From assembly GCA_006226755.1 (NCBI GenBank), contig SBGE01000042.1, forward strand, positions 1-32,461: a stretch of DNA of 32,461 nucleotides. The letters run 5' to 3'. Made by a program: the position numbers and the translations under genes. The first letter of the stretch is position 1, and every line of letters starts with the position of its first letter. Origin of the DNA: Deltaproteobacteria bacterium. Lineage in GTDB: Bacteria; Bdellovibrionota; Bacteriovoracia; Bacteriovoracales; Bacteriovoracaceae. Of this stretch, positions 524-4,376 are shown piece by piece. The notes under the pieces are model-generated. The model made no database searches. It saw only the letters and a list, made by a program, of their open reading frames with translations, and was not told the DNA's origin.

Positions 524-1411
524 TCAGCTCTTCAGACTTCCTGAAATACGTTCACCTTTACTGTGCTTTTTATAAGTATCTGCATCCAAGGAAGGAAAAC
601 TTATTATTGGAAGCAAGCTTTCCGTTTGTTCGTTAGGATTACTCGAAAAATTATAACAAACTACAAAGAAGTAAAATGAACAACCATCTCTTTCATAGGC
701 CTTGATATAGGTATAGAGTGTATCTCCATCCTCATCCATATAGGTATAGACTTCATCTGGGTTTTCTATTGTAGGCTCAAAAAACGGTTCATAGTTGGCA
801 AATTCTTCAATAGGAATATCGTGAGGACTTCTTTCTTCAATCATCTGAGCAAGAAGTGAACTCTTTTTTTGCTCTACAGTCTCGAGAATCTGCTTGGGGT
901 CTCCACTTACTTCCATCTCTTCATCGGTGGCCAAAAAATCTTCGATATCTTCAACTGGATCACCAATCCTAAAGTGATCAACAAACTCTTCATTTTCAGT
1001 TGCAGTCAGCAAAAAGACAAAGGAAGGTTTAGCATCATAAACATAACAAAGAGAGATCAACCAAATCTCTTTCCCTTTATCTTGGGGAAATTTACCAATA
1101 AATGAGTAAATTTCTTCTTCCAGTTCATTCATAGAATGGTAAATTTCAAGAGGAGCTGAAAAAAGTTTGTCTACCAACTCGCTTTTTTCTAAGAGCTTCA
1201 GGCAGGTTTCATTCTGTATACCTAATTCAGAACGAAGTTCCTTTTCTTTGGCCTCATAATGCTTGAAAAGTGGAGAATAAAAATTTTCAATACATTTTTC
1301 AGAACAGAATCCGCGTGAAGAGTCTTCCTCGACAAAAAGAAGATCTTCGACATTATTGAGAATTTTTTTGCACTGATTACAAAAATATAACTTGTTATTT
1401 GAGAAGCTCAA
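524..1411 (-). CDS. Hypothetical protein with N-terminal Cys4 zinc-finger-like motif
   Basis: About 295 residues, mostly acidic, with no membrane segment. Near the N terminus is CNQC, about 23 residues, then FCSEKC followed by IENFY; this C-x2-C...C-x3-C layout with the FCS..C...F signature resembles TRASH/MYM-type metal-binding fingers. The rest is rich in Asp and Glu (EEEIYSF, EDIEDFLATDEE, YTYMDEDGDTLYTY) and I recognise no enzyme motif. A longer frame opens at 1483 but would run through the end of the upstream gene. I prefer TTG at 1411, just after that gene's stop, with GGAA about 6 nt upstream. The gene follows the outer-membrane barrel gene by 11 nt, so the two probably form one operon. 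Confidence 0.7.
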   Translation of the reverse strand: MSFSNNKLYFCNQCKKILNNVEDLLFVEEDSSRGFCSEKCIENFYSPLFKHYEAKEKELRSELGIQNETCLKLLEKSELVDKLFSAPLEIYHSMNELEEEIYSFIGKFPQDKGKEIWLISLCYVYDAKPSFVFLLTATENEEFVDHFRIGDPVEDIEDFLATDEEMEVSGDPKQILETVEQKKSSLLAQMIEERSPHDIPIEEFANYEPFFEPTIENPDEVYTYMDEDGDTLYTYIKAYERDGCSFYFFVVCYNFSSNPNEQTESLLPIISFPSLDADTYKKHSKGERISGSLKS

Positions 1412-2603: not shown

Positions 2604-2912
2604 TTGGAACTACCCAGAAGAAAAAATGAACAAAGCTTGAAAACCCTTGTGCAATTGGGAACAAAAGGTTTTTTTCCACTCTTCTATGACAACTGGATCG
2701 AAGAACATTTTGAAAAACAATATTCAAATCTTACTAGTCAGGAAAAACAAAAAGCAAAACAGATCATGCAAAAACTGGTCAAGCACAAAAGCATAGATCG
2801 AAAGCGAACTCTCTTGATGGCACTTGATGAAAATGAAAGAAGAACATTCATCAAGGCCTTTATGAAAATGGTAGAAGGACAAATTCTTGATGAAAAACCA
2901 GAACTCCATTAA
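2604..2912 (+). CDS. Conserved-looking helical hypothetical protein
   Basis: A 102-residue, basic, probably all-helical cytoplasmic protein without signal peptide or membrane segment. The start is a TTG preceded by a strong AAAGGAGAA at 2591-2599; no ATG offers an alternative near the N terminus. The middle is rich in Lys and Gln (LTSQEKQKAKQIMQKLVKHKS), and the C-terminal half (ALDENERRTFIKAFMKMVEGQI) reads as an amphipathic helix. I do not recognise a family. It is the first gene of a unit of three overlapping genes, ending 23 nt inside the next one, so its product probably works with the coiled-coil/Hsp20 protein encoded at the end of the unit. Confidence 0.7.
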   Translation: MELPRRKNEQSLKTLVQLGTKGFFPLFYDNWIEEHFEKQYSNLTSQEKQKAKQIMQKLVKHKSIDRKRTLLMALDENERRTFIKAFMKMVEGQILDEKPELH

Positions 2913-3207
2913 ATTGTTTCTCGTATTCATCGCCTTCTGGGCCACTTCGGTCCAGGCGGAATACCGAGTTTATCAATATTATGTGAAATCCAGATTTTCC
3001 CTGCCTCAGGATAAAAATTCTTACATTGTCACTTCTACATTAGACCCCGTGAGTTATGTGGCCTATCATGGAGGGTATGACAGTTTAAAAGTGGATTTGA
3101 TCAGGTCCTGGACTTGTGTCGGACACACTGGAGCTGGAAAAGAACTCTGTGAACCAGTACTAGAAAGCTTCAATGAACAAGAAAGATTAAACCAAGGTCG
3201 TCTTTGA
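2890..3207 (+). CDS. Small exported hypothetical protein
   Basis: A 105-residue protein with a clear Sec signal peptide (MKNQNSIKLFLVFIAFWATSVQA, cleavage after the AXA-like site) and a mature domain of about 80 residues. The mature part contains YRVYQYYVKSR, a Tyr-rich stretch (VSYVAYHGGYDSLKV) and two Cys (SWTCVGHTGAGKELCEPV) that are well placed for a disulfide. ATG 2890 has GAAGGA about 10 nt upstream; a TTG directly before it is less likely. It overlaps the previous gene by 23 nt and shares TTGA with the next start, so the three genes are translationally coupled. No family recognised. Confidence 0.7.
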   Translation: MKNQNSIKLFLVFIAFWATSVQAEYRVYQYYVKSRFSLPQDKNSYIVTSTLDPVSYVAYHGGYDSLKVDLIRSWTCVGHTGAGKELCEPVLESFNEQERLNQGRL

Positions 3208-4376
3208 AAATTGAACAGGAAAACAAATTCTACGAAAATCGTCTCAAAAAACTCAATGAACATTTGAGAAAGAGAATTGATGGTCGTCAAAAAGAAATAG
3301 AAAAAACAGAAGAGATCTATGATCTCAAAACTCAAAATGTCAAAAATGAGGCCAATCAAAAAGAAGTAGAGGCCAAAGAAAAAGTCAGTAAAGAAATAGC
3401 CATGGCCATGGAGAATAAGCAAAATAAACTCCATGAAATGAAGGAACAACTTAATAAAGATAGAGATCTTATTGACGCTGAAAGACAACTCCTTACCGAT
3501 CGAAATAATTTTCAAATGACATCTATGCAGACTGATTTCGATCAAACTTATAAAGAAAGATTCGCAGAAGCATATAATCAGGCCCAACAAATCAATGATC
3601 AGAGTCAAAATACCATAGTAAAGATGGAAGCTGATACGACTGAAGGTATTCAAGAGGCCAACCGTGATGCTCGTAAAAAAATGGACAACGTCATCACAAC
3701 CAATGAAGATCTGCTAGCAAGAGAAAGAGACGCCTACCTTCGCACATTAAACAAAACTCAGGCCGAGAATGCTGAAATGTTGGCAAAAGAAAAACTCAGA
3801 TTTGAAGATGAGATGAGAAAGCTCTATTCTACTCAAGCTGATTCGGCCAACCAAAAGCAAAATATCCATGCTCAGCAATTGAGAAAGAAAGAAGAATTCT
3901 ATTCTAGACTCATGAAACAAAAAGAACTGGGTTTTAAGAGTAAAGTTCAAAAAATGCATGAGCAGCATGAAACTCTGATATCCAAAATCCAAGAAAGATT
4001 CAAAGTAGAACTCGATAAGCTACTTCAGGCCCATTCCAAGAGAAAACAAAATGTAATGGAAAAGTCAGCAGACGACTTTTATACCGTAAAAACCATCACA
4101 CCTAGAGTTATGGATGGACTAGATCACTACATTGTCACAATGGAGCTCCCGCCCCATGAAAAGGACAGCATCAATATCAACGTGAATGATAGAAAACTGA
4201 GACTCACCCTTTCAAGAAACTTTGCAGAAACTCACTCAGAGGGTGGTGTTGAAAACCGCGCCAAGCGAAATGAAGTTCTCACCAAAACGGTAACACTCGA
4301 AGACATCATGGACCCAGGCAAAGTAACTAGTTCATATAAAGACGGCACTCTTTATATCAAGATTGGCAAGGCCTAA
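3204..4376 (+). CDS. Long coiled-coil protein with C-terminal Hsp20/alpha-crystallin domain
   Basis: 390 residues in two parts. Residues 1 to about 285 form an almost unbroken charged coiled coil, rich in Lys, Glu and Gln, with no Pro and no membrane segment. Residues about 293-390 look like an alpha-crystallin (Hsp20) or CS-type beta-sandwich: VMDGLDHYIVTMELPPHE, then INVNDRKLRLTLSRNF, then TKTVTLEDIMDPGKVTSSYKDGTLYIKI, which matches the ACD strand order and the closing 'dGvL.I.i' strand. Ordinary small heat-shock proteins are about 150 residues with a short N-terminal arm, so a 285-residue coiled-coil arm is exceptional. The TTG start overlaps the upstream stop (TTGA). The stop overlaps that of the convergent mgtC-like gene by 4 nt. 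Possible roles are a filament or scaffold with a chaperone tip; this is inference. Confidence 0.8.
   Translation: MKIEQENKFYENRLKKLNEHLRKRIDGRQKEIEKTEEIYDLKTQNVKNEANQKEVEAKEKVSKEIAMAMENKQNKLHEMKEQLNKDRDLIDAERQLLTDRNNFQMTSMQTDFDQTYKERFAEAYNQAQQINDQSQNTIVKMEADTTEGIQEANRDARKKMDNVITTNEDLLARERDAYLRTLNKTQAENAEMLAKEKLRFEDEMRKLYSTQADSANQKQNIHAQQLRKKEEFYSRLMKQKELGFKSKVQKMHEQHETLISKIQERFKVELDKLLQAHSKRKQNVMEKSADDFYTVKTITPRVMDGLDHYIVTMELPPHEKDSININVNDRKLRLTLSRNFAETHSEGGVENRAKRNEVLTKTVTLEDIMDPGKVTSSYKDGTLYIKIGKA

Follow-up and report, generated by a model that had tools for sequence, protein, structure and literature searches.

A conserved gene unit of the Bdellovibrionota encoding a predicted hendecad rod with a C-terminal alpha-crystallin domain

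Genes of the locus

The window, i.e. the whole stretch of DNA that was analysed (32,461 nucleotides of contig SBGE01000042.1), contains near one end a unit of three overlapping genes on the forward strand, termed P1, P2 and P3, preceded by two genes on the opposite strand, one of which is termed PB (Table 1). The family to which the source genome belongs is referred to as the home family.

Table 1. Features of the P1-P2-P3 locus; positions are those of the window
Feature	Position	Strand	Description
PB	524-1411	-	Tandem PBECR2-like regions; TTG start at 1411; near the unit in 55/61 loci
Exported protein of unknown function, between PB and P1	1423-2364	-	Present in 34/61 loci, home family only
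P1	2604-2912	+	102-aa helix-rich cytoplasmic protein; TTG start
P2	2890-3207	+	105-aa exported protein; ATG start; signal peptide; invariant Cys pair
P3	3204-4376	+	390 aa; hendecad rod followed by a C-terminal alpha-crystallin domain; TTG start
Rod of P3, residues 7-289	3222-4070	+	Single predicted helix; 11-residue repeat
Alpha-crystallin (Hsp20) domain of P3, about residues 293-390	4080-4373	+	Pfam HSP20; Foldseek

The overlaps described in the first-pass annotation, 23 nt between P1 and P2 and 4 nt (TTGA) between P2 and P3, were confirmed from the ORF coordinates, the former with P2 starting at the ATG at 2890. This is the most likely start of P2; the mechanical ORF list places it one TTG codon upstream, at 2887. 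The use of TTG starts in two of the three genes was likewise upheld, for P1 and P3. An alignment of 47 orthologues shows the first residue of P3 (M1) retained in at least 90% of them, which makes its TTG start credible. A family-model search gave no convincing match for P1, and promoter and terminator scans gave results no better than those from shuffled sequences.

The second gene had been read from the sequence as a small exported protein with a pair of cysteines. An alignment of 48 P2 sequences bears this out: the signal peptide has its cleavage site between AxA and EYRVYQY, and two cysteines (C77 and C88, numbered from the TTG at 2887) are invariant and probably form a disulfide. The AlphaFold2 model of P2 is confident (pLDDT 90.5). 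Searches by sequence, with Foldseek and with VIA-align (best Z 4.4) gave no convincing solved relative, a result that does not by itself prove a new fold, and no P2 was found in viral contigs. A P2 homologue also occurs in family f3, where it lies directly downstream of a TatC-like gene (L096, 5901-6254; L097, 6143-6493) without P1, P3 or PB.

PB is transcribed divergently from the unit and lies next to or near it across the phylum; the unit drawn in the first-pass annotation left out this conserved member of the neighbourhood. In the home family PB has a zinc-ribbon-like N-terminus. The PBECR2 score of the window protein (24.2 bits) is below the cut-off of 27.1, and five orthologues score between 27.7 and 74 bits, the last value being that of the orthologue in a Bdellovibrio-like genome (locus L079, 5249-6118, minus strand). 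As a single-copy gene conserved next to P1 in much of the phylum, PB would place an RNase-type (BECR nuclease) fold in a core-like locus. The exported protein encoded between PB and P1 has no Pfam match.

Architecture of P3

The alpha-crystallin-like domain first proposed for the C-terminus of P3 was confirmed. Residues 306-389 match Pfam HSP20 with 29.3 bits in the whole protein and 33.9 bits when the C-terminal part is searched alone (cut-off 20.8 bits), and 31 of 47 P3 orthologues match at an E value of 0.01 or better. An AlphaFold2 model built with 47 orthologues (mean pLDDT 84, with 90 or more at 183 of the 390 residues) consists of one helix, residues 7-289, followed by a beta-sandwich, residues 301-389. 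The best PDB matches listed by Foldseek are all alpha-crystallin domains (best E 2.7e-5). Solved small heat-shock proteins of non-metazoan origin align with the domain, also in the stretch between strands 5 and 7, which appears compatible with the usual strand-exchanged dimer. In all 47 P3 proteins the C-terminus lies 98-104 residues beyond F292, at the last strand or shortly past it, and a C-terminal extension is thus absent. P3 is not the only such protein of the cell, since the source genome contains three further HSP20 matches above the cut-off (best 91 bits). No signal or membrane segment was found in P3, and its rod and crystallin domain as a whole are captured by no Pfam or NCBIfam model.

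The remainder of the protein had been described as about 285 residues of coiled coil. The predicted single long helix agrees with this description as to extent; the repeat is a hendecad and not the heptad of intermediate-filament-type proteins. In the hydrophobic-residue spectrum of the window rod the peak lies at a period of 3.66 with a power of 21.4 (maximum in 2000 shuffles, 11.8), close to the hendecad reference of 11/3 = 3.667, while the heptad period of 3.5 has a power of 0.3 and is preferred only in a short stretch at about residues 47-102. A peak at 3.64-3.67 was found in 50 of 51 P3 proteins of the home family and in 17 of 18 from the outgroup. Hydrophobic residues gather at four of the 11 repeat positions (0, 3, 4 and 7), which span about 98°, and the charged and polar residues of the rod sit outside this narrow seam. 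Position 7 is enriched in His, Phe, Leu, Tyr and Asn, and charged residues are almost absent from it.

In most P3 proteins the repeat stands in a fixed phase to an FY motif that precedes the crystallin domain, even though anything from about 285 to 453 residues separates the protein start from this motif; the outgroup P3 of L089 is out of phase. Within the home family the rod has a mean identity of only 19% to that of the window P3, yet 40 of 46 comparisons are free of insertions and deletions. Near-constant length at such low identity is what would be expected of a rod whose register and length matter, and the possibility of a scaffold, raised at first reading, fits a rod of near-fixed length. 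P3 belongs neither with the canonical small heat-shock proteins nor with the heptad-based, intermediate-filament-like proteins. Two further observations concern the rod. A shortened P3 of 255 aa (L087, 6250-7017, minus strand; genus g53 of family f6) has no clear hendecad repeat, and the rod of P3 weakly matches the PADLOC model of ZorA (15.6 bits, E 0.001), which may reflect helix-rich composition only.

Distribution of the unit and of flagella

The three genes were searched for together in other Bdellovibrionota, and their adjacency was found across the phylum. All 51 home-family loci analysed contain P3, and P2 was recognised in 50 of them and P1 in 45; the order P1-P2-P3 is kept, usually with short gaps or overlaps, and is also seen in other families, one example being a Bdellovibrio-like genome (locus L079, 6262-8434). 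The set recurs far beyond chance. A P3 match was obtained in 108 of 129 home-family genomes, most of these being full-length and the weakest being ordinary Hsp20 genes. In the phylum as a whole the P3-type profile matched 259 of 291 genomes; many of the matches weaker than an E of about 1e-15 belong to ordinary Hsp20 proteins, and a hand count of true P3 gave roughly 205 of the 291. P2 is present in 181. Two scans with single P3 proteins of a genome-contig collection, from which records near the genome of the window may be missing, found no relatives. The open-access literature searched gave no earlier description of the cluster, and no dedicated Pfam or NCBIfam model exists. The conserved unit thus appears to be without description, in keeping with the initial view that it represents an undescribed system.

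The grouping into three genes was retained in part: P1, P2 and P3 are conserved as neighbours, but in the home family it is P2 and P3 that are present or absent together, whereas P1 travels with PB. Incomplete sets occur in family f8 (P1-P3 at one locus, P3 without P2 at others) and in family f12 (P3 without P2). In several outgroup loci (L085, 6761-11428; L086; L087; L098) an unrelated gene lies between P1 and P2, which adds to the evidence that P1 is separable from the P2-P3 pair.

FliG was found in 255 of the 291 phylum genomes. By a count derived by hand, P2 occurs in 177/255 FliG-positive and in 4/36 FliG-negative genomes; the overall Fisher p of 1.7e-11 ignores phylogeny and is not to be taken at face value. 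Of the four FliG-negative carriers, G105, G179 and G300 have four to seven flagellin-type matches each, and G182 shows a partial match to FliG within a short open frame, so P2 was found in no clearly non-flagellate genome. Neither was P3 found in any clearly non-flagellate genome sampled, the sole ambiguous case being G283 (74% complete). Eleven genomes without a flagellin match (G065-G069, G131, G139, G141, G153, G165 and G268) contain no P2 and no full P3; all 11 keep a match to the type IV pilus protein PilN. Within family f11 the P2-P3 pair is present in 11 of 12 flagellate genera and in none of the four non-flagellate genera (hand count; Fisher p = 0.003).

The manner of absence was followed in individual loci. 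In the non-flagellate genus g28 (L109-L111) the divergent pair of PB and P1 is kept, and P1 is followed directly by an APP1-type gene, which in the flagellate relatives of g28 lies downstream of P3. P2 and P3 are thus missing as a pair between intact flanks, and their absence is probably a loss rather than an original state. P1 is likewise kept without P2-P3 in G065 (L113). In four flagellate home-family genomes that lack P2-P3 (G022, G025, G072 and G078), P1 and PB were also not found, which suggests loss of the whole locus or an assembly gap. Overall the distribution points to the flagellum or to motility, through a link that is correlative and drawn from few independent events, with statistics that ignore phylogeny.

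Interpretation and comparison with known systems

The explanation that we favour, tentatively, is that P3 is a cytoplasmic rod that presents crystallin domains and acts with the envelope protein P2 in a task linked to the flagellum or to motility, as a scaffold or as a dedicated holdase. The rod would be a hendecad helix some 283 residues long, measuring about 42 nm at full extension, which would join partner helices along its narrow a/d/e/h-type seam in an oligomer and present paired alpha-crystallin domains at one end. P2 and P3 would form a functional pair on or near the flagellum, perhaps in contact with it, or in a process that is lost together with it. Their task might be that of a spacer or scaffold, the crystallin domains binding a partner, or that of a dedicated ATP-independent holdase with chaperone activity towards clients. 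P1 and PB would be more widely retained companions, perhaps regulators.

Several observations count against this explanation. Small genomes are common among the non-flagellates. P2-P3 is absent from many flagellate genomes, and the pair is therefore not needed for flagella in general. In the loci examined no flagellar gene was recognised beside the unit, and P2 without P3 (f3) as well as P3 without P2 (f8 and f12) exist. P2 is exported, whereas P3 has neither a signal nor a membrane segment, so that a further component would have to bridge the two. A more specific version, which we regard as rather unlikely, is that P2-P3 is a new flagellum-associated machine of the phylum, in which a cytoplasmic hendecad rod of defined length uses its paired crystallin domains to position or protect a flagellar component and is coupled to a disulfide-bonded envelope protein. 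The flagella of the Bdellovibrio phylum are typically sheathed. If this version were true, P3 would to our knowledge be the first crystallin-domain protein to provide a motility organelle with a structural rod or ruler.

Of the other explanations, the one that survives best, with perhaps one chance in a few, is a general stress function: P3 would be a holdase of the small heat-shock type whose enlarged N-terminal arm helps to bind aggregating proteins, and the flagellar correlation would reflect lifestyle or genome size. The crystallin domain is genuine by profile and by Foldseek, and the N-terminal arm is where small heat-shock proteins vary most. Variable arms are nevertheless unlike a rod of near-invariant length at low identity, and P3 lacks a C-terminal extension, is tightly linked to an exported protein and is encoded in a genome with separate Hsp20 genes; the absence of P2-P3 as a pair where the flanks are kept also argues against a general role. 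Somewhat less probable is a cytoskeletal function in cell shape or polarity, in which P3 would form a rod or, along the lines suggested at first reading, a filament that the crystallin domains cap or cross-link. The length of the predicted rod and the precedent of the Bdellovibrio coiled-coil protein Ccrp speak for such a function; against it stand the hendecad instead of a heptad repeat, a genome position suggesting that P3 is not Ccrp (see below) and the absence of P2-P3 from genomes that keep MreB, which was present in all 35 genomes examined.

It is improbable that the cluster is a toxin-antitoxin or defence locus, with PB as an RNase under chaperone-type control by P1-P3. Chaperone-assisted toxin systems exist and a divergent PBECR2-domain gene is conserved here, but the locus is single-copy and largely syntenic over the phylum with no sign of mobility, has no convincing PADLOC match, encodes an exported P2 and retains PB and P1 where P2-P3 is absent. 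No more probable is a helix that binds membranes or tolerates drying in the manner of apolipoprotein or group 3 LEA repeats, with the crystallin domain as a protective partner, since against the 11-residue periodicity (period 3.66) and weak, likely compositional profile matches to apolipoproteins A-I and A-IV stands a narrow hydrophobic seam, unlike a broad lipid-binding face.

Crystallin domains are of a known kind. As far as Pfam, NCBIfam and the searched open-access literature show, what is new is that one such chaperone-type domain is joined to a long hendecad rod of a controlled length and encoded in a conserved, flagellum-restricted operon, which occurs in much of a phylum noted for its predators. 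The restriction to flagellates and the paired absence of P2 and P3 turn an unannotated operon into a specific hypothesis testable in Bdellovibrio, in which gene deletion and fluorescent tagging are established.

Among known proteins, long helical cytoplasmic rods are common to P3 and to crescentin, FilP and the Bdellovibrio protein Ccrp; these have a 7-residue repeat, whereas P3 has an 11-residue repeat and a folded terminal crystallin domain. We take the gene for Ccrp to be Bd2697. In the Bdellovibrio-like genome the P3 orthologue is followed, at a distance of about 29 kb, by a Dps-like gene, and Dps is Bd2620 (PMC11318664). This position weakens an identification of P3 with the published Ccrp, which is probably a different protein. 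As cited in PMC8938487, Ccrp prevents cell indentation and does not set vibrioid shape or curvature (Fenton, 2010). Another protein of the Bdellovibrio-like genome (G186:C1:2680306-2682690; L108), of 794 aa with an FHA-like start and a long helix-rich region low in Gly and Pro, is a better positional candidate for Ccrp than P3.

With the small heat-shock proteins (Hsp20/alpha-crystallin, PF00011) P3 shares the C-terminal domain by both profile and fold. Their arm is short, variable and largely disordered, whereas that of P3 is a hendecad rod of about 285 residues and near-constant length; they have a C-terminal extension with an IXI motif, which P3 lacks; and, unlike them, P3 is encoded together with an exported protein, the other Hsp20 genes lying elsewhere in the genome. 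Small heat-shock proteins also act as holdases in large, dynamic oligomers. The 11/3 periodicity is held in common with apolipoproteins and group 3 LEA proteins, from which P3 differs in its narrow hydrophobic seam, fixed length and fused crystallin domain. In proteins of the NudC type a coiled coil is likewise followed by a crystallin-like sandwich; these proteins are eukaryotic, carry a CS domain rather than Hsp20 and have a much shorter coil than the rod of P3.
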